From NCBI GenBank assembly GCA_034687125.1, contig JAQGBZ010000186.1, forward strand, positions 58,552 to 122,551: a stretch of DNA of 64,000 nucleotides. Reading direction: 5' to 3'. The position numbers and the translations under genes are program-made. Positions 20,718-64,000 of the stretch are shown piece by piece. The notes below the pieces were generated by a model, which saw nothing but the letters and a program-made list of their open reading frames with translations, had not been told where the DNA came from and searched no databases. The first letter of the stretch is position 1, and each line of letters begins with the position of its first letter. Source of the DNA: Neelides folsomi. Lineage: Eukaryota; Arthropoda; Collembola; Neelipleona; Neelidae.

Positions 20718-22835
20718 TTATTTTCTAAATTCTCTCATTCTAACTGAATCTTTCTCTTGGAATCTTTTGCTCCCTTTGTTCCACTTTTGTTCTGAGCCAG
20801 ATGCAAAAATGACATAGAAAACCACACCGACGATGTAAATTGCAGCCGTGACAAAAAACACTTTTTGCCATTGACCGAGAGAAGGCTGAAAGCAAATTAA
20901 GGTAAATTTATTTTGCATTTATGAAATTAGATCACTTTTTGATTGTTTGCAACTTTTAGGCTTACGTTATTATTAATGAGGTATCCAGTGAGGGCCGGAG
21001 AAACAAAACCACAAACGGAGGCAAGAGTGTTTGAGATCCCAAAGAGAACTCCGGCAAAGTTGGGGGCAATGTCAATATGATTGATGATGAAGCCTAAATT
21101 AATTAAAATATAAATTAACGAGGGAATTTAACAATTTAATTTAAATTTAAGTGTTGGGAACCTCCATAAATGGCTCCATTAACTGCCACGGCAGTCGTTA
21201 AGAGAGAAACGGCCACGAGTCGATTACATCCCGAATACGAAGCTCCAATTAAAGCCGCAGCTGAACTTAAGTGTGCTGAGATTTCAATAACCAGCAATTA
21301 ATTGTCCAATGTAAAACTTTAGACTTTCCTTCTTTTATTATTCATAAAACAAATGTAAAGTTGTTTGAGTTAATGGGTTTTCGAGATTACCTAAACTTTG
21401 GCATAACTTCCTCACCGACACCACTCGGAGAATATTCCAGGAAATGAGGCAGTCGGCGACTTGAGTCAAAATAATTGACATGACCCACATGATCAAATAG
21501 GGAAATGCTGACATCCAGCTATTCTATACTTAAGCCCATTTAATGTGAGCAATAAAAACCTCAAATAAATGTGGAATGGCACAATTTGAGAAAATGGACC
21601 TGTTTGATGTCAAAATGCATAGCGGTTTTCATATAAGTCGGGAGCCCCGTCAGCAACGTGTACAAACCCCAAGCATGGCATGTATTGGCGACCAAAATGG
21701 CCCAAACGGGCATTGACGTGGCAAAACTTTTCCATGGGGTTGCAATCTTTTGACGTCGCTCGTATTGTTGTCCAAGGGACTTTTGTATGTAACTCAGCTC
21801 TTTTTGGGAAATCCTCGGATGATCCGCCGGACTTTCGAACATGAAGAAAACCCAAATGATGAACCAAAGGACTGAAATGGCTCCAATGATATAAAATACC
21901 GAAGGCCATCCTCCCATTACTTCAAAGTCAATCAGGTAACCGCCGACGACCATCGTGGCCGCCGTTCCCAATTGGGCCCCTGCGTAGATGACGGATGACA
22001 TTTGGCTTCTTTCGTTTGGTGGAGCCCATTTAGAAAGAATAACGTGCATTGCGGGCGGCGTGACGCCTTCGCCCAGACCTTGAATGAACCGACAGGCAAT
22101 TAAAAGATCACGATGCATCCGAGCCGCAATTGGAATTAATAAAGTGAAGATGGCTGTTATAAAAAGGCCAAGACCGAGCGTCCATTTTCCTCCAAATTTT
22201 TGAGCCAAAATTCCTCCAGGTAGCTGAGTCAAACAATAACCCCAGAAAAAAGATCTAACAAATCAATTTGTTTAAAACATTGTAAAACTGTCTAGTACTA
22301 TAAATTATATTTTTGCAAATTAAATTATTTTATTTTTATAATTTGAGTGGTTTAATATTAAAATCACCCAAGAACTATTCCTTGCTCTGCTTCATTCCAA
22401 TTGAATTCTCCTTCTTGGACAATTTTGGCAGTTTGGTTTTCTGGTTCATCTTCAATGAAAAGTTCTCGGCAATCTTCTTCTATTATTACTTTAATAAATG
22501 TTTCATTCACAATTCCAATGTCGCTTAAATTCACTGTCTTTACCGCTGCTGTTGAATTTACCATTGCCACTATTGCCAAAGAAAGGTTAAACCTCATGGC
22601 ATATGAAATGGCAAAGGCCCAAAATCCTAAGAGGGCCAAGGTATGCCGAGTTCCATAACCTAAAAAAGAACAATTTACTCATTTTTCTTTCATATTTTAA
22701 AAATTTACAAAATTGAAATATGCTACAAAGATACAAAATAATAATATAATAAGATTAGATACCTTTGGGTTTCCTTTGCGAATGAGAGACATTTATATCC
22801 AATTGACTTCCCTGCTTCAGCGTGCCTGGTACCAT
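20718..22835 (-). CDS. SLC17 family anion transporter (sialin/vesicular glutamate/Na-phosphate type)
   Basis: Seven exons read right to left: 22763-22835, 22368-22659, 21600-22254, 21391-21523, 21162-21275, 20966-21093 and 20718-20885. All phases match and give a complete protein of 520 residues, the usual family length. It is a major-facilitator carrier expected to have 12 membrane helices. Family marks are an arginine in the first helix (AISYAMRFNLSLAIVAMV, R47), an acidic, glycosylatable first luminal loop with NET, then PGGILAQKFGGKWTLG, RFIQGLGEGVTPPAMH, HFDIKQ and NHIDIAPNFAG. Members move organic anions or phosphate with protons or sodium in plasma, lysosomal or vesicle membranes; the substrate cannot be read here. 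The ATG at 22835 is the first in frame and gives a short cytosolic N-terminus. An AATAAA overlaps the stop codon. Confidence 0.93.
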
Positions 22836-24292: not shown

Positions 24293-25285
24293 TTAGCATT
24301 GCTGAAAATAATATAAAAGGGGTTATTTTCAATATTGTACTTATAATTGAATTTAAATGAAATACCAATGTCTATTTTGTAAACTTATGCAAATAAAATA
24401 GCTAAAATAAATTAAACATACCAAGCCTGCAATCTTCCATGTGCAATCAGCGAATTGTTTAACAGACAAACAAGAATTCTCAGTCGTATCAATATTTTGT
24501 GCTACACAAATAAATAATAAATCCATTAATTTTGAACTTTTAATAAACAAATTAAATTAATTTCGATTTTTTCATTTTTTAACTATGAGACTGAAATAAA
24601 TAAAAACATGCCATATTGGAAGCAACTGGAGAAATGTCGGAAAGCCTTTGATTCATAGCCTAATTGAGCTGAATGTTGGGCTAATTTGTAATATTTCTGC
24701 TTATCAGGCAATCCTTGGTCATCAAGCTAAATAAATAAATTAATTATAAATAACCTCATAAATATGAAAATTGATATTTGTATAATATTTAACTAAATAA
24801 ATATTATAGTAAAAAATTAATTCTTACAAGATTGAGGATTTTAGCTTGGCAGAAAAATTGACACTGAAAAATCAATACAATTCAATAATGTTATTAATAA
24901 AATGAAGATTTTAGGCATTTTTATAAATTTTAAAAACATTGATTTATAGTTATTTATTTTACGGCTTTTCTCTCTTCTGGAAATTTTTCATCGTCGTTGC
25001 ATGGTGCAAGTGCCTCGTAAACCCAAGCTCCCACTTCAAATCTTCCATCAAGACATGTAATAGCTAATGGGCTCTGCTTGCCGGTTTTCTAAAATAAAGT
25101 TTTAACCAAATTATAAATCCATCAATATTACATTGCAAATGGGACAAAGCGAAGTATAAATTGTAATTTTATTAATGATGTAAAAGTGGTTAATTTTGAA
25201 TTTTATTCAATTTTACTTCTTTTTGAGGAACTGATAAAACTCCGGCGATAAGGACACAGAGAATCGCAAATCCCAAAACCTTCAT
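24293..25285 (-). CDS. Secreted odorant-binding-protein-like (PBP/GOBP-like) protein
   Basis: Six small exons (25217-25285, 24963-25088, 24828-24863, 24612-24726, 24422-24501, 24293-24301) join in phase into 144 residues. Residues 1-18 form a clear signal peptide (MKVLGFAILCVLIAGVLS). The mature part has cysteines at 35, 53, 66, 70, 112, 126, 135 and 144. C66-x3-C70, C70-x41-C112, C112-x13-C126 and C126-x8-C135 match the C2-C6 spacing of insect OBPs, and C35 lies 30 residues before C66, as expected for C1. LLDDQGLPDKQK and ADCTWK also read like OBP sequence. Such proteins carry small hydrophobic ligands in extracellular fluid. C53 and C144 are extra. The fourth intron appears to use a GC donor (after 24612), and the last exon encodes only two residues and the stop. 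If the last intron is retained, the protein instead ends in a hydrophobic tail. The fold assignment rests on spacing, not on a search. Confidence 0.62.
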
Positions 25286-26335: not shown

Positions 26336-26629
26336 TTAGAAATATTTTTTGTAAGTTCCAAGATAAGCATTGCAAGAAGGACATGTATGTTGGACTTGTT
26401 TGCAATCCTTCATGCAAAAAGGAATACAACAGCATCCGAACAAACAACCCAAAGAAGAAAGTACGACACAAGAAGTGTAAGCTGCCGCACTCGGAGACGC
26501 TTCAGTCGCCGTTGACACGAGATTCTGACAACTTGGACAGGTCAAATTAACTCCCGATGGACCGAAGGGTGGTAAAATTGGAATGACAGGTGTCGAACTC
26601 ACTACAATCATATTCATTTCTTTCGACAT
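26336..26629 (-). CDS. LITAF-domain (LPS-induced TNF factor-like/CDIP) membrane protein
   Basis: A single-exon gene of 97 residues. The N-terminal 30 residues are short and proline-containing (TPVIPILPPFGPSG), followed by the complete LITAF domain: a CPSC half-site (LTCPSCQNLV), a hydrophobic and cysteine-rich stretch (residues about 49-70, ending CLFGCCCIPFC), then KDCKQVQHTCPSCNAYLG. The two CPxC knuckles bind zinc together, and the hydrophobic part dips into the cytosolic leaflet of endosome or lysosome membranes. Family members act in endosomal sorting. The size is typical of the short arthropod members. No intron or frameshift is seen. The ATG at 26629 is preferred because it gives the usual short head; an internal ATG five codons later is possible. 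Confidence 0.92.
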   Translation of the reverse strand: MSKEMNMIVVSSTPVIPILPPFGPSGVNLTCPSCQNLVSTATEASPSAAAYTSCVVLSSLGCLFGCCCIPFCMKDCKQVQHTCPSCNAYLGTYKKYF

Positions 26630-29507
26630 TATTAATACACAATGTTCTTGTATTACAAAAATAAGAGATAATATTTTCCAATTAAGTAATAAATTTTTTA
26701 CTATTTTTATTCATCCCGCCTTCTGTCCAATCTGCCATTGTAGTTTTTAAATAGAGCTTTTTGGGCTAAAAATTTATCTTAAAATTTGTAATTATCAATA
26801 TTTTATAAATAAAGTACTTTGCTTTTGTATTTTTGATATAAGTTAAATCTCACTCTGTAGATGATTTAAAACGTAATATTTTTAAGAATCGTCTAAAAAA
26901 TATTCCAAGCTGATAATTTTATCGTGTCACTTCGATGGTCAAGACTGAAAGACCTTGTAAATATAAAATACGTGTCGATTTGACTGATCGAACTATTTGT
27001 TTGGCAAATGGAAAAACTACCAGACCCTCAAACTTTCTTCGACACGAAAGCAAACGAACAAATTAAAGGTTACCTATATGACCAGCTTGTCTAATACTAC
27101 GGTATACGGTGGCATAACTTGTATAGTGTATTTAGTATTAATACTAATTTATATGTATGCATATATGCATATGCATTATATAATAATAAAAAATAAAAAA
27201 TAAACCTAATAATTTTAAATATTCATATATCTTGTTAAATTACTTACACAAACACAATTCTATACTTGCATGCATGTTTAGTGGTTCATAATTCATTCAA
27301 CATAAATGTTCTATCAGTCGTAATAACTACATAAAGCTTCAAAAAATTCACTTGTAGCCAACCACTACAAATTGGTCATTTAAATTTTATAAGAGCATTA
27401 AGATTCCATTATTATTGATTAACATGAAGCTCAACAAACCATATACAAATACCCATACCAATTTGTTCAAAAGTTATAGAAAATTCCGTCAATTAAGTTA
27501 CATAAATGGATACTTTTAATACGAATGAGACTTTAATGGTAAGGTGGTATAAGAAATTAGAAATAGGAACTCACATTCAGACAAATGAATCTAATAAACT
27601 AATATTCCAAATGTTATTGATTTCTTTTTGGAATTTTCACAAAACTGCATCAAAGAGAAACATTTTTGTAGTTAAATGCACAATGCAGACTCCAAGGACA
27701 TTTCATGTTAGACATTGGACACATTTAGAGTACATGATTATCATGCGAACAATGAAGTTTGTTAAAGAAGAGAGAACTATCTCGAAACTCTTTTTCTTTT
27801 TACACAATCCTATCATAACACCTAACTTAACTTTTGATAAAATTAAAAATCAAATATGTTTGACATTGAAATAATGATTGATAAACAGGGAAGTGTTAAT
27901 TATAATCACATAATTTGATTGTTCCCTTAAAAGTGTGATGTCTCTTCAATGAAATAAATATATCAGTAATTTGGCAATTCACACATCATTCAATCTAGTA
28001 AATATCGTAATATGCACCCATATATTAATTCTACTATAACCTTATAATTTGAAATATAACAGTTAGATTTGTTTCACTTCATTTTTACTCATATTTTATT
28101 GTTCACTATGGGATGCTTTCATTAAAAGACAAGTGATTAACTACAATGCCAATATAACAATGTGCAAATTCCCCAATGACAGTATTAGTTTATATAAATT
28201 GAAAACTATTTTTATTAATGATTTCAGCTTGACCTTCTACCTACTTCGTTACATACAATACAAGCATATTAAATTAATAGATAGTAATGTGTAGTACATT
28301 GTATTTTGTATTCTTATGTCATGTATTACTTTCATGAATGCTCAATAAAAATTCATTATATAAATATTTTTTATTTTGCGTCAATGAATCAATCCATTCA
28401 CGTAAAATAATCAAATCTTAAATCTCATGCATAAGTACCATAGGTCTTATTTTATTCATCGCACGCCACGACTTTGACTATACTATAACAATGCCAAATC
28501 AAAAAGTATTTATGTAAATTAGGTTTTTATTTAATTCCAATTATTTGCTCAAATCGTATGTCTCATCAGCTCAGTCAGCTTCAAAAGATAAACAACATTT
28601 GGAAACAATTAAGTGTCACTACTGCGATTCTTCAGCTGTGCTACGTAACAAATTAAATCAAATGCATACAATCTCAATATATTTAACAAGTTTCTGTCCA
28701 TACCCACCAAGTCTCACATTAAAAATGTTATGCTCTCTTCTGGATAGTGAAATGAAATACATAAAATACGTACATTGGTACCAATGTGATAATGAGTAGT
28801 GGAATAGGGATAGGAATAGATGAACAACTGTTTGTGTGAAATACTGTATGGATCATTGGGTGATGCAAGTGAAGCATAATGATGATTATTCATAGAATTA
28901 ATTTGTATGTATTCAAGTGGGTTCGCAGTTGAGCTACCTGTGCAAGAACAGAATGCTAAGCAAATGAAAAACCAAAATCTCCAACAAACATCATTCATTT
29001 TTTTATTTAGCAGCTATAGAAAGTGGGACGCTGAGTTAGCTTCCGCTTCAATTCATGAAAAGAATTATTTTGGATCGTAAAGTAATTGCGTTGACTGTCG
29101 GTGGAGAATAAAAGAAGCGGAAACGAAATGAGCTCTTTAATGGAGCTTGGATAACTTGTGTGGATCAGTTTGAACTTACCAATTGCTAATTTAAGTGTGG
29201 CTAATAAATACAATTTTAGTTGTAAATTGAATATTGAAAGTGTCAGTTGGTGGACTCCGATTAAAAGTGTTAACTTGTGATAGAAGTTAGATTAACAATA
29301 TAGTAGGATAAAATAATCATCAATTGATTCAAGTGAGTTGAGCTGTCAAATACCAAAAAGAATTCTCCTATCTTATTCTCCTATCACTGCCTCATGAAAC
29401 TCAAGTTTATGCATAAGCAGGGGTTCCACGTTGAGAGCTACGCTGCTCTTCCAACAATTGAATTCCTTTAACATAAATATATTTTCTCAAAATTTTTAAA
29501 AGTGAGA
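26630..29507. other. Intergenic, AT-rich
   Basis: No recognised gene. It contains a 122-codon plus-strand ORF (27506-27874) with no family resemblance and a 94-codon minus-strand ORF with a signal-peptide-like start (28714-28998, listed separately). Confidence 0.45.
28714..28998 (-). CDS. Possible small secreted protein or first exon, not recognised
   Basis: The 94-residue ORF begins with a hydrophobic, signal-peptide-like head (WRFWFFICLAFCSCTGSSTA). The ATG follows a run of A, a favourable start context. The rest is rich in Tyr, His and Ser and resembles nothing I know. A good donor (ACAG then GTAGCT) lies inside the ORF just after the hydrophobic head, so this may instead be exon 1 of a spliced secreted peptide. 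Chance cannot be ruled out in DNA this AT-rich. Confidence 0.2.
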   Translation of the reverse strand: MNDVCWRFWFFICLAFCSCTGSSTANPLEYIQINSMNNHHYASLASPNDPYSISHKQLFIYSYPYSTTHYHIGTNVRILCISFHYPEESITFLM

Positions 29508-32500
29508 ATGGGGTCGGATAATGCAGCGTTTGAACTGAACGAGCCCTTTACTCAACCGGTAATTAATTAAATATTATATATTTTTTAAAGTATTTCATTA
29601 GTTATATTCTAAGAGTGAGTAGTAAAGAATTCAATTTTAATTTAACCTCAATTCGAACTTCATTACATGTAAATTTCAATGCATTACAATAAATACAATG
29701 TAAGGTGAAAAATGGAAATCTATCAGTCACTCGATTTCAAAAAGAAACGATAACATAATATATTTATTCTCTGTATATTTATTTACATACGGAGTTAAAA
29801 TATCAATGTAGGTCAATAAAATATTGAGTTATCTCATGAAGGAAAATATTTTCGTAAATTATTGGCAAGTTTAATCATTTTAATGGAAATTTACCGCGTT
29901 TCAAAAATCTCCCCCAGTATACACAACGTTAGTTTACTTTTTCCCAACTAGCAATAAGATATATAAATAGCCTATTAATTTCAAAAATATTTAATGGGAA
30001 TTTTTCAAATATTTTAAAAACAAATATTTTACTTTTTTTCAGAAAAACCTTTATAGAAATCAAAAACAAGAAATAATTGACGATGAAGATGATACACTCG
30101 ACGGGAATGATAATTTATTAGGGCGGTTAATTTTAAAAGTCCGAACCTTCATTATAAACTTAATTATCGAACATAATTCCAAATTAAAAATTATTTTTAT
30201 AATTGCCCTCATCGGATTATACTTTGGATATTTAATAACAGCAATTGCATACAACGCTCGAAATGATATCCCACTCGACTCTTGTGACGGACTCGGACTT
30301 TTAATAATCCTCACAGCTATTGCTCTATGGGGAGTTTTTTATTACGTTGTTCTCAAAGGATATTTCGGTGATAGTATTCAGGCTGGATGGAAGCCGATAC
30401 AGAAAGTTCTTGGGCCAATATTTGGGAACTCAATAGTGCAGATTTGTATTGTGCTCGGAGTTCTCGCCGCTGTGGTGGGATTTCTCGTGTGGGACGCTTG
30501 GGATCAAAAAGGAAGATTGCGTTCGGCTCTTGGAGTTGTTTTCCTTCTACTTTTTGGTCTCATTGTGTCCAAATATCCCGGATATATTCGATGGAGAACT
30601 GTCATTTTTGGAATTCTTTTTCAATTTCTCTTCGGGCTCGCCATTTTGAGATGGGAAGGAGGACGAAATGTTTTTAATTGTATTAGTGGAAAGGTAAACG
30701 TTTTTTCTGTACTTGATTCCATATATAACTTATAAAAAATTCAAAAGTATTCAAATATAAGAAATATACTAAATAGTATTATTGTAAGGCGTCTTTTTGG
30801 CACTAGTTAGTTCATTAGTTGTAATTTTTACCACTACCTGTTATTATTAGTATTAAAACATTTTTTAAAATCATTGATTGTTTTGATTTTCAGGTGAAAA
30901 CCTTTCTCGACTTTACGGATGTTGGATCAGAATTTATTTACGGATATTTGGCCAAAGGATTAACAATTGACGATAAAGTTGTAGAAGGATCGATCTTCGT
31001 CTTTAAGGTATATTAAAATCATAACTGGCTAATATTTTTATTATATGAAGTTTGACTTTGTAAAAAATAACACGTGCTTAATTTGATTTTAAGGCTCTTT
31101 CCGTTATTTACTTCTTTAGTTTTGTTATAAGCATGTTGTTCCACTTTGGAATCATGCAATGGGTTTGCATCAAAATTGGATGGGTACTTCAAGTAAGGCG
31201 TTTATTTATTTTATACTACTATTAAATTAATACAGATATATTACATATTCCCAAAATGAATATTGAATACCTTAATGTACTAATATTCTAATTACAAATA
31301 ATCTTGAATTTATCGTAAAGATCAGTCTTGGAACAACAGCTGCTGAATCAATGACAGCTGCTGCGAATATTTTTGTTGGTCAAGTAAGGAACTGAACAAA
31401 TTATGTAGATGAAACGTTATTTTTTTCGTATTTCTGGATATATGATCTTTTTTTCAGTAATACAATAATATTTGCATTTAATAAATTGTTCTCTCTAAAT
31501 ATTTAAGACAGAAGCTCCTATATTGATCAAGCCATATATGAAAGATATGACAAAATCTGAGCTCCATGCAATTATGACATCTGGATTTGCTACAATTGCA
31601 GGTAATAAAAAGTTTACATCCTTTTCTTTAATAACTGGAAAATTAAAATAATGATTTTTTTATTTTTCAAAGGAAGTGTAATGGGAGCATACATCACATT
31701 CGGGATTGATCCAGCTTATTTACTCTCAGCTTCTGTTATGGCCGCTCCGGCGTCTCTCGCTATGTCAAAGCTCCTTTATCCAGAAACGAAAAGATCACGA
31801 ACAACTTCTCAAGCACTCGAATCAAATAAACTTGAAAAGTCATTTATTTTATTTTTATTAATTCGTTACTTTAATTTTCAATAATAATTGGTTTATATAT
31901 TGGGTTATCAATCTTGTCCAATATAATTTCAGCATTTTCTTAATAAATAAATAATTTTTAAACAGAACTGGAAGTAATGCATTGGATGCTGCAAGTCAAG
32001 GAGCAACTCAAGCTGGAGTTCTAATTGGAAACATTGTTGCTAATATTATTGCCTTTATGGCCATGGTCGCTTTTTTGAATGCCGTCATCGGATGGCTCGG
32101 AGGACTCGTAGGTTTAGAGGATTTTACATTTGAGGTTGAAAATTTTAATTTATTATTACATTTAAAATTTAAATAGCTTTAAATAATGGAAAATTTATAT
32201 TTTTGTTGCGCAGTTCATTTTAAGTAAAGTGTTCATTCCATTTGCATGGATTATTGGAATTGATAACGAAGAAATTGAAAAAGTTGGTTTATTACTTGGA
32301 CTTAAAACAGTTGTTAATGAATTCGTGGCATATGAAAAACTTATTGAAATGCGAGGCCTAAATGAATTATCAGTAAGCTAAGCGTTTTTGTAATTATACA
32401 AAATAAATCTTCTTCAATATTGCACCATACGATGGATATAAAATGATATTTAAATACGAAATGTTTTTAAAGCCGAGAAGTATAGCCATTTCCACCTACG

Positions 32501-34521: not shown

Positions 34522-37500
34522 TCAATGAATAATATAAGTGTTTGTGACCGAAGACCAAGCGAGCGTGTAGGCCCATTTAGGAAACTTGGCTGCAAAAGTG
34601 TCAAGGCTCTTTGAATTGTAGCCTTGAAGGAAGAAAGTTGAATAAAGAACTTCCAATGCTGGGCCATCGTCTTCACCATCCCGTTTCCGAACTAGGTCAA
34701 GGGTGAATTCAAATCTCTGGAAGTCAATGCCTCTTCCGTGGTAGATGAAGAAAATTGGGCGTCCTTTGTGTTCCATTTCAGTTGCAGGAATTCCATCTTT
34801 GAGGGAAGATTTGACAAGCTCCCAATTAAGGCCAGGTGAAAGGACAATGGTCATGTGATCTGGACCAATAAATGAAAGAGTCAATCGTCGACGAGATTGG
34901 CTTATAAATGTATCTTCGGTAATATCCAATTTCACACGGGATTTCAATTCAGGGCTTAAGCCTTCCTTAGTTGGAACCCATTGAGTCCGTCTAAAAACAA
35001 AAATAAATATTGTTGATGCCAAAATTTTATAATCAGTTCTGATTTAAGTGCGTATACCTAGTTTTAAAATCAATTGAAATTAAATTTTGTATTGGTGCAT
35101 ACTTCACTCTCTTTGCAACAGGAAAGTAAAATGGAAGGCGGCAGTAAACATGTTCACATTCATCTGTCACAAGTTCAACTCGATCTTTCAATTCATGAAT
35201 TTCCTCTTCAAACCTCGACATGAATTTGGGAATATTTGGATCCAAATTGAAGAACCAATATCCCGAATCGGTCGTTGAAGGCCCAGAAGGACCATTTAGA
35301 AACATGCTCCTGTCAACTTCAACCAGGTGAATCCGCATTGGAGTCATTTCCCCATAAGGCACCCGTCCCACAAAAATGAAGATAAAGACAACAACAAAGG
35401 CGACAATTATAGCAGAAAACTTCAAGAACTCCTTTTTAAAGAATAAAAATATTGGGACAATGCCGGTAAAGGCTGGAACGGTCAAGATAAAGGCAGTTAA
35501 AAATCCAACAAACAGATTTGGATTCACTTCCGTTCCCGATCTCCCCATTATCGGAACAAAAGTGTCGGTCGTGATTGAAGAAAGATAAATGGAAAGTGTG
35601 AAGGGAAAAGCCTCTCCAATGAGCAGATAAAACAAAAGCCGTCTTTGGAATTCTGAAAATTAAATAAATGATTCAAATGATTAATACTCGTAATAATTTT
35701 ACATGTACCATAGAGTACAAAGCTTACTTGTTATAACCTTATTAGTGAATGATGTTATTTAACTTATTGTTAATAAAATCATTTATTTATTTATTAATTC
35801 ACCTCTGAAGAAAATCCTCGCAGCGTACCAACCAACAATTCCGAATCCAATGTTAATCATAAGGACAAAGACAATCCTCGTAAAAAAGGTAGTAATGAGG
35901 AGGATGAGAGCGAGAGTGGTTTTGCTCGCCATCCAACACATGTCTTCTTTTTTGAGTAAAAGCCCAAATGTTGAGATTTGACCCATCAAACAAGGAATCC
36001 CAAAAATGAGATAAACTGAGCTCGGGTAAGAGAAGAATGGCATTGCAAAGCCAAGGACATTAAAGAAAGCTCCAACCAAGACTGAAGAAAGAATTCCAAC
36101 TGCCCAAGCCAATGCCACAATTCCAACGTTCTTCAAAATTAAAAAGATATTTCCATCGGCTGTAATAAAAATAATTAAATTATTATATTAGAATTTTACT
36201 TGTAATTATTAGATCCATAAACAGCAAATTACATAATATCTAGTTAAATATACATAATTCATAATAGTAACTATATTACCTTCTTGGTAAGCAATAATAA
36301 GTGTGACAATTGCAACGATCAAGTTGATAATATGACCAGTAGTTTCGGAATAAGCTACCATCGTGAATCCAAATACGTCAAAGAAAATCATATTCCGATT
36401 ATCGGATTTCAACTCTTCGTCAAATTTAAGATTCCCCATAGTTGTGATAAGATGAAGAACGTTGTCCCCAACATGTTGTATGCTTCCAGCAGTAATTTGA
36501 TCAACTTTATCATGTTTCGTATGATAAACAAATCCGTTTTTAATGAAGGCCATGTCAAGTCCCGGGATTTGAGCAAAATCTCTAAATATTCTGAAATCAG
36601 TGTCAGACGGAATTAATCCCCTTTGGAAAACTTCTTCTCCAACAGCACTTCCAAATGGATGAGGAGCTGTTGCATAAACGCTCGAGACAATCCAACCATT
36701 GCCTGGTCCTGTTTGAAATAAAACTTCGCGACCGCCAGCTCCAGCTGCTTCAAGATTCACAAATGCCTTTAACCCCTTTGCCCATTTGTGTCCAAGAACA
36801 TCCGATCCTTCGGTCCGCCCTTTGAGAAAGGCATGGGCTCCTTGCAACCCATTTTCCTCGGCTCCATTAAAAAGAAATACAATTGGATTCATCAACGGAA
36901 CCTTTTGAGCTGCCAAAATTCTTAAAGCTTCGATCATCACGGCACAATTGACCATATTGTCACTCCCACCAGGACTTCCAGGAACGGAGTCAAAATGGCA
37001 ATTGACGAGAATCGAGTCGAACGTTGTGTTTCTTGAACCTTCAAGTCTTGCTATTACATTTGGCACCTAAAATTTTTACGAAATGATTAAAAATAATCAT
37101 AGAGATTTACAAAACCTACATGTTTCAAAATAAAATTTAATTAATTCAAGTTCTAGTTTTTAATTACATTGGCGTAAGATGAAGTGAGCCCATCTTGAAA
37201 ATGCATTGAAAATGCTCCACTTGATTTTTGTATCTCAATATCCAATTTCTGCTCAGTTGCTGCCGTCCTCTTGATTTCATTTAAAAGCCTCATGAGACTG
37301 TCGACAGTCAAAACATCGTTTTCGTGACTTCCGCAAGTTCTCGGTCCGACACCCGTGAGGAGAATGAGATCATTTCTTGCACGTTCTTCGATAAATCTGT
37401 AAATATTTGTTAAATGTTAATTTAATTGATTACTGAATAACAGAATTGCATTTTCTAAAAATACTATTTACTTTAAAATATTATTTAAATTACTACATAA

Positions 37501-62957: not shown

Positions 62958-64000
62958 CCGTTATTGTTCGAATAATAGCCCTGCTCGAATAAGAGCCCCC
63001 TCTCGAAACCTAATTTTTTAATAAGAGCCTAGGCTCTATCAAGAGCCACATATCCCGCGCACATAATTCAAAATAGCGTTTTGTCAAAAGTCAATATTAC
63101 TTGTCGATTTAAATTTATTGTGTATTTCCAATATTTAAACAATTAAAATGCCATTAAAGAAACAATATTCAATTTTATATAAACTTGATGTTATAAAGTT
63201 TAATGAATCTCATTCTGGTCTCCAAACTGCTAAGCATTTTGGCATTTATCCAAAGCGAGTCAGGGAATGGAGAAAAAGTTAATCCAAGCTTGGTAAGATT
63301 ATTTTTATAAATTTAATTAAATATATTTCAATATTAATATTTAATAGAATGCATTCCTATACTATTATTAATTTTTTAGAAAGATTTGCCAAGTCTAGCG
63401 GTCCTGAAAGTAAGAAGAGGAAAAGGTTAGATGGAGGCGAAAGAAGGCCAATTTGTGAAGATTTCGAAAACGAAATTCACGATTGGGTGATTGAAAAAAG
63501 AAAAAACGAGAAGAGAGTGACCAGAAAAACAATTAGAAGATATGCTTTAGAACTTCACACCGAGAAAGGAAATGATCGACCGTTTAAAGCATCGGATTGG
63601 TGGGTACGAAAATTTATGAAAAGGACAAATCTCTCACTTCGTTGCAAGACTACCGTTGCTCAAAAAGATCCGGAGGAATTGAATCCAAAAATCGTTTCCT
63701 TCATTGGATATACGTCTCAAATGAAAAAGAAATACAATTTGAAAGATGCAGATATTTGTGCTATGAACGAAACCCCGCTATGGTTTGATATGCCTGGAGC
63801 TGTGACAGTTGGAAAAGTCGGAGCTAAAGATGTCACTTTTAAAACAACTGGAAACGAGAAAGCTCACTTCACTGTTTTGCTGCCAGAGGGGATGGAACAA
63901 AATGCAGACCATTTATTATTTTCAAAGGTAAATTTATTTTGCAAATTTTATTTCCAAATTAGGTATTTAAAATATTTCGATTAGTTTAAATTATACGTAT
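62958..64000 (+). mobile_element. Pogo/Tigger-like DNA transposon (left part, runs off the window)
   Basis: It probably begins after the TA at 62956-62957. The first 110 bases carry repeated motifs of the type TCGAATAAKAGCCC and AAGAGCC, typical of transposon subterminal regions. They precede a transposase gene with a CENP-B/psq-like DNA-binding head and a DDE domain. The right end lies outside the window, so the exact ends and the target duplication cannot be confirmed. Confidence 0.72.
63148..63927 (+). pseudogene. Pogo/Tigger-like transposase, 5' part, apparently damaged
   Basis: Exon 1 (63148-63292) encodes a helix-turn-helix head (DVIKFNESHSGLQTAKHFGI, VREWRKS) and exon 2 (63380-63927) a CENP-B-type DNA-binding domain (SDWWVRKFMKRTNLSLR) followed by the start of the DDE domain (ETPLWFDMP, FKTTGNEKAHFTV). 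Using the strong donor GTAAGA at 63293, codon 45 is a TAA stop (63280-63282), which breaks the protein. A weaker donor at 63278 (GTTAAT) would also join in frame and remove the stop. The first catalytic Asp of the xMDET motif is Asn (63766-63768). A further donor at 63928 leads out of the window. In an active element the protein would bind the terminal repeats and cut at TA. Confidence 0.75.

Follow-up and report, generated by a model that had tools for sequence, protein, structure and literature searches.

The gene on the minus strand at 25285-24293 of the window (the whole stretch of DNA analysed here, 64,000 nucleotides) is a real gene of the odorant-binding protein (OBP) family; the family label is unsurprising, and what is new is the eight-cysteine variant that it encodes. 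It is one of four OBP genes recovered from this genome, all of which (4/4) encode small secreted proteins with a predicted signal peptide, as judged from a hydrophobic N-terminal core in a crude hydropathy analysis. By their sequences, the four proteins look like a union of the insect and the mite cysteine patterns. The OBP family consists of secreted carriers of hydrophobic ligands, and the window protein is probably such a carrier, helical and braced by disulfides, and a divergent, eight-cysteine member of the PBP/GOBP family, for which we infer the cysteine pairing, the fold, the binding, the role and the springtail identity of its bearer.

Gene structure and cysteine arrangement

Six exons join in phase into 144 codons followed by TAA, with the following features, listed in the direction of transcription:

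25377-25372, minus strand: TATAAA, possible TATA box, 92 bases 5' of the ATG, spotted by eye
25217..25285, minus strand: exon 1, 23 codons with the start codon and the signal peptide, which has a hydrophobic core; GT donor
24963..25088, minus strand: exon 2, with C0 (residue 35, an extra cysteine) and C1 (residue 53)
24828..24863, minus strand: exon 3, C2-x3-C3 (residues 66 and 70)
24612..24726, minus strand: exon 4, up to C4 (residue 112), then GC donor (GCATGT)
24422..24501, minus strand: exon 5, C5-x8-C6 (residues 126 and 135)
24293..24301, minus strand: exon 6, a mini-exon in which a single residue is followed by C7 (residue 144, an extra cysteine) and TAA
24082..24087, minus strand: AATAAA 3' of the stop, possible polyadenylation signal, found by pattern search

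The five introns are 99–128 bases long each, with an acceptor AG in 5/5 and a donor GT in 4/5, the donor of intron 4 being GC (GCATGT). This intron lies in phase 1, 3 codons past C4. Cysteines occupy residues 10 (within the signal peptide), 35, 53, 66, 70, 112, 126, 135 and 144, eight of them in the mature protein, and the hydrophobic core at the N-terminus reaches a top 10-residue Kyte-Doolittle mean of 3.27. An earlier note on this DNA had described six exons joined in phase to 144 residues, which the exon join and the splice sites bear out, and a signal peptide, which is likely from the hydropathy. Its cysteine spacing, C-x3-C-x41-C-x13-C-x8-C, matches the protein exactly, but it made use of only five of the eight mature cysteines and left C1 (residue 53) and residues 35 and 144 unmentioned.

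We have taken residue 53 as the classic C1, only 12 residues ahead of C2; if residue 35 were C1 instead, the C1–C2 gap would be 30. Classic OBPs have C2-x3-C3, about 36–46 residues from there to C4, and C5-x8-C6, and the x3, x41 and x8 of the window protein fall within these ranges. In classic insect OBPs, six mature cysteines are accompanied by about 20 or more residues from C1 to C2; the window protein, with residue 53 as C1, has eight cysteines and a gap of 12.

Family assignment and the sister genes

In a Pfam search (hmmscan), the sole match of the window protein up to E 10 was PBP_GOBP (PF01395; E 2.1e-4, 21.8 bits), which misses the curated cut-off of 22 bits by 0.2 bits. No match to PBP_GOBP at E up to 1 was obtained with 20 shuffles of the protein, in which residues 1–19 and all cysteines stayed in place, and the match is therefore not made by the cysteines alone. 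When the window protein was searched singly against the PDB (phmmer), no solved OBP was retrieved, and the one match was weak and unrelated (E 0.91).

A PF01395 search of the animal's own genome (75.1 Mb, 840 contigs) revealed exons of three further genes, on contigs C486, C67 and C413, whose models were joined by eye with the splice sites checked. Against PF01395 their proteins score 38.0 (C486), 32.7 (C67) and 30.7 bits (C413), all above the cut-off of 22. The window gene itself was absent from these exon-wise matches, none of which was listed on its contig; the four OBP genes are thus a lower bound. When the proteins of the window gene, C67 and C486 were used as genome queries, each recovered its own gene, and C67 also recovered C413; no further OBP members came from these three queries (C413 served as a target only).

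The profile of the four mature OBP domains, based on MAFFT alignment A3 as it stood, matched 43 different sequences in the PDB (E up to 10). Solved insect OBPs were found among the 17 sequences at E up to 0.001, with a best E of 5.9e-8, and 42 of the 43 matches are OBP, PBP or D7 chains, including two that bear a gene name only. The matches are presumably driven by the three clearer sister proteins. Besides the window protein, those of C413 and C486 were the ones searched singly against the PDB, giving weak OBP matches (E 0.024 and above) and weak OBP/D7 matches (E 0.052 and above), respectively.

MAFFT alignments A1–A3, tried for the cysteine register, displaced C0 or C1, for which reason the spacing was anchored on the cysteines. 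In the cysteine-anchored alignment, the window protein is identical to its sisters at 8/107 (C67), 5/106 (C486) and 9/108 (C413) non-cysteine positions. An HMM of the three sisters scores it at 1.9 bits, which was reached by 89/1000 full and 177/1000 cysteine-fixed shuffles, so that it is by its spacing and introns that we count it among the eight-cysteine OBPs. The gaps between successive cysteines, from C0 to C7, are:

Window protein: 17, 12, 3, 41, 13, 8, 8
C67 protein: 17, 18, 3, 41, 12, 8, 8
C413 protein: 17, 21, 3, 41, 15, 8, 8
C486 protein: 16, 26, 3, 41, 19, 8, 10

All four proteins share C0, placed 16–17 residues ahead of C1, and C7, 8–10 residues past C6. The C1–C2 gap of 12 in the window protein is smaller than the 18–26 of the sister genes and also below that of classic OBPs. 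The genes have introns in common as well: a phase 0 intron directly 5' of the C2 codon is found in 3/4 OBP genes, the window gene included, and a phase 1 intron 3–5 codons past C4 likewise in 3/4, the counterparts of intron 4 of the window gene lying 4 and 5 codons past C4 in the C67 and C413 genes. In 4/4 genes, the last exon opens with a single residue and C7, following a phase 0 intron.

That the window protein is not an OBP at all, but an unrelated secreted, cysteine-rich, helical protein with OBP-like spacing, we consider very improbable. Such a protein could account for the sub-threshold Pfam score, the missing PDB match of the protein alone and the poor sister-HMM score, yet the cysteine-fixed shuffles (0/20 matching PBP_GOBP), the identity of 5/7 cysteine gaps with those of C67 and the intron positions common to the window gene and to bona fide OBP genes argue against it. 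It is therefore on the E-value, the controls, the spacing and the introns, and not on the cut-off, that we file the window protein as a divergent PBP/GOBP relative. The earlier note had called the protein OBP-like and suggested a PBP_GOBP profile search as a check. Its call is upheld by the sole Pfam match, by the sisters above the cut-off and by the insect OBPs found with the four-OBP profile; what the profile search did return for the window protein was E 2.1e-4 with a score just short of the cut-off.

Comparison with insect, springtail and mite OBPs

Springtail OBPs were reported in 2014 as seven sequences from two species, Folsomia candida and Orchesella cincta (PMC4145409), and the presence of OBPs in such an animal is thus ordinary. 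The OBPs described from these two basal hexapods are, like those found here, few and widely divergent (PMC4145409), and they may well share the eight-cysteine form. The text of the dipluran genome paper contains no OBP term (PMC6938034). Across titles and abstract openings, a body of text with few subscription papers and no figures, no eight-cysteine springtail OBP is named. If the combined cysteine pattern holds in related species too, it is surprising.

With classic insect OBPs (PF01395; for example LUSH and NribOBP3) the window protein shares secretion, a mature domain of about 120 residues, C2-x3-C3, C5-x8-C6 and profile similarity; it differs from them by the added C0 and C7, a very short C1–C2 gap and the lack of a tail past C7. 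The window protein resembles the plus-C OBPs of insects in having an OBP frame with more than six cysteines; the extra cysteines of plus-C OBPs usually sit after C4 and after C6. The plus-C type is described as having two added cysteines and one proline (PMC8067015); in the window protein, one extra cysteine precedes C1, no proline is found past C6 and the chain ends at C7. For the locust 'plus-C type-A and type-B' OBPs, as worded in the text of their report (PMC5623057), an overlap with the window pattern is possible.

Mite OBPs are reported to have six cysteines, with bridges C1-C6, C2-C3 and C4-C5, in contrast to C1-C3, C2-C5 and C4-C6 in insect OBPs (PMC8222343, PMC8269058). A bridge between the N- and C-terminal parts has thus been measured in mite OBPs, whereas classic insect OBPs are without it (PMC8222343, PMC8269058). 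The published bridges join residues 21/141, 41/68 and 111/132 in Varroa OBP1 (PMC8222343) and residues 57/175, 77/102 and 145/166 in Tetranychus OBP1 (PMC8269058). In the Varroa crystal structure, and in a Tetranychus model derived from it, two of the bridges are described as overlaying insect C1-C3 and C4-C6, with C1-C6 joining the termini (PMC8222343, PMC8269058), and Varroa OBP1 is reported to lack helix 2 (PMC8222343).

From the published positions in VdesOBP1 and TurtOBP1-3 (a set without the other Varroa OBPs and TurtOBP4) we computed mite gaps of 19, 24–26, 42, 20–24 and 8. When C2 and C5 are disregarded, the gaps of the window protein become 17, 16, 41, 22 and 8, which are near the mite set but unequal to it, and two more cysteines are present; those of the four OBPs together become 16–17, 16–30, 41, 21–28 and 8–10. 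The window protein thus appears to have cysteines at the C1-C6 positions of chelicerate OBPs (Varroa VdesOBP1, PDB 7NYJ and 7NZA; Tetranychus TurtOBP1-4), and it adds the insect C2 and C5 to them. The mite counterpart of its C1–C3 gap is longer, 24–26 residues versus 16, and the likeness to the mite spacing would be weaker if residue 35 were C1. The Varroa OBP1 chains 7nyj and 7nza were absent from the PDB matches of the four-OBP profile (E up to 10), a search of low sensitivity at such divergence.

The authors of the spider-mite OBP study (2021) considered a precursor shared by chelicerates and insects possible and reported no evidence of an ancestor in sequence databases (PMC8269058). The four OBPs described here, from one genome and with a proposed pairing, are a candidate for the common precursor of chelicerate and insect OBPs. 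Tentatively, and with somewhat less than an even chance of being right, the eight-cysteine OBP may be read as a surviving four-bridge ancestral arthropod form, with insect and mite OBPs belonging to one family older than the split of their lineages. Of the four bridges, insects would then have retained C1-C3, C2-C5 and C4-C6 but not the one between the termini, whose loss may have come with that of the last mini-exon, and chelicerates would have retained C0-C7, C1-C3 and C4-C6 and lost C2-C5. If this is true, the insect and the mite proteins are not separate inventions. Insect-type OBPs that carry both patterns, with C7 on a conserved exon of its own, make the question of the precursor directly testable.

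Another possible explanation, for which we see a chance only just under even, is that these are 'plus-C' OBPs of the springtail lineage, in which the extra cysteines arose once, apart from mites, and that the likeness in spacing is a matter of coincidence or convergence. Gains of extra cysteines have been reported more than once in insect OBPs (PMC8067015, PMC5623057), the pattern comes from one genome only, and a sequence match to the Varroa chain is missing. The occurrence of C0 and C7 in all four highly divergent genes, within the narrow gaps given above, and the C7 mini-exon common to 4/4 of them imply that the pair is old in the springtail lineage, and both speak against this explanation, as do the C3–C4 gap of 41 (42 in mites) and the C6–C7 gap of 8 in 3/4 proteins (8 in mites).

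As for the fold, three bridges of the window protein would correspond to the classic insect set C1-C3, C2-C5 and C4-C6, and by a fourth, C0-C7, the N-terminal arm would be fastened to the point where the last helix ends, in the manner of C1-C6 in mite OBPs. With C7 as its last residue, the chain has no free C-terminal tail that could act as a lid or as a seventh helix. The C1–C2 loop of 12 residues would leave little room for the classic helix 2, and the pocket is probably open on the helix 2 side, as in the Varroa protein.

Receptors, lineage and genomic surroundings

The odorant-receptor model, searched against the genome, had three weak matches and no strong Orco-like one, which is also the situation in a springtail genome. 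Two of the three were scanned further: one is better as a gustatory receptor and the other matched 7tm_6 only. The latter is a single-frame protein of 412 residues (L017, 1026-2264, minus strand, G000:C641), with 29.6 bits to 7tm_6 and no match to 7tm_7 at E up to 0.001; it is odd for a springtail, and on its account the absence of odorant receptors is uncertain. Given the lack of a strong Orco-like match, the protein may deliver its ligands to neurons with gustatory or ionotropic receptors, or function in non-sensory lipid transport. A non-sensory job for this OBP-family protein, namely lipid carriage in haemolymph, gut, cuticle or reproductive fluids, is possible, although we would lean against it; it is consistent with the missing strong Orco-like match and with the reported expression of many insect OBPs in tissues other than sense organs (PMC8067015). 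A set of OBPs from an animal without a strong Orco-like match bears on the role of OBPs before odorant receptors. Among other chemosensory families, OS-D (chemosensory protein, CSP) gave six matches, 4/6 of them within 35 kb (G000:C1:731681-765917), a likely CSP cluster.

On the mitochondrial contig, C742, trnL(UUR) lies where COX1 meets COX2 and overlaps the ends of both open frames (ARAGORN, mitochondrial mode); the contig otherwise follows the common pancrustacean order. Of its tRNA calls, 21/22 were named, and trnN was not found on this contig by the same program and mode. A trnL(UUR) between COX1 and COX2 is the pancrustacean position. Chelicerate, myriapod and tardigrade origins, which we had considered, were dropped on account of it, and the animal is therefore probably a hexapod, perhaps a springtail. 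The surprise which the earlier note had reserved for the case of a non-hexapod genome is left unsupported by this tRNA position and by the springtail OBPs already reported (PMC4145409).

A hexapod is likely rather than a crustacean. The mitochondrial order fits both groups equally and some crustaceans, too, have small genomes of about 75 Mb, but COX1 looks springtail-like. Orco or odorant receptors are described as missing from crustaceans and from a bristletail (PMC5644144), which would agree with a crustacean source and means that a missing Orco fails to separate springtail from crustacean. Within Pancrustacea, insect-type OBPs have been reported from hexapods only (PMC4145409, PMC8067015); a crustacean source, from which these genes would be the first clear insect-type OBPs outside hexapods, is on the whole improbable. 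Two springtail markers were uninformative: the NRPS condensation domain (for ACV synthetase) gave one match in the genome, below the cut-off, and GH45 cellulase gave none in a genome search run without a positive control. DIOX_N (2OG oxygenase), which is not springtail-specific, was matched eight times on five contigs (G000:C223, as L018, and C54, C96, C318 and C346), with a best score of 98.8 bits.

Around the OBP gene, 6/15 listed open frames of the window were scanned against Pfam. A LITAF-like zinc-ribbon protein (76.1 bits) is encoded in one open frame at 26336-26710 (minus strand), about 1 kb upstream of the OBP gene. Open frames at 21561-22262 (minus strand), 29995-30735 (plus strand), 34522-35043 (minus strand) and 36209-37066 (minus strand), on the flanks of the gene, gave matches to an MFS transporter, a Na+-dependent nucleoside transporter and ERMP1 (C-terminal domain, M28 peptidase). 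Towards the end of the window, at 63283-63984 (plus strand), a Tc5-type transposase DNA-binding domain (49.9 bits) marks part of a DNA transposon.
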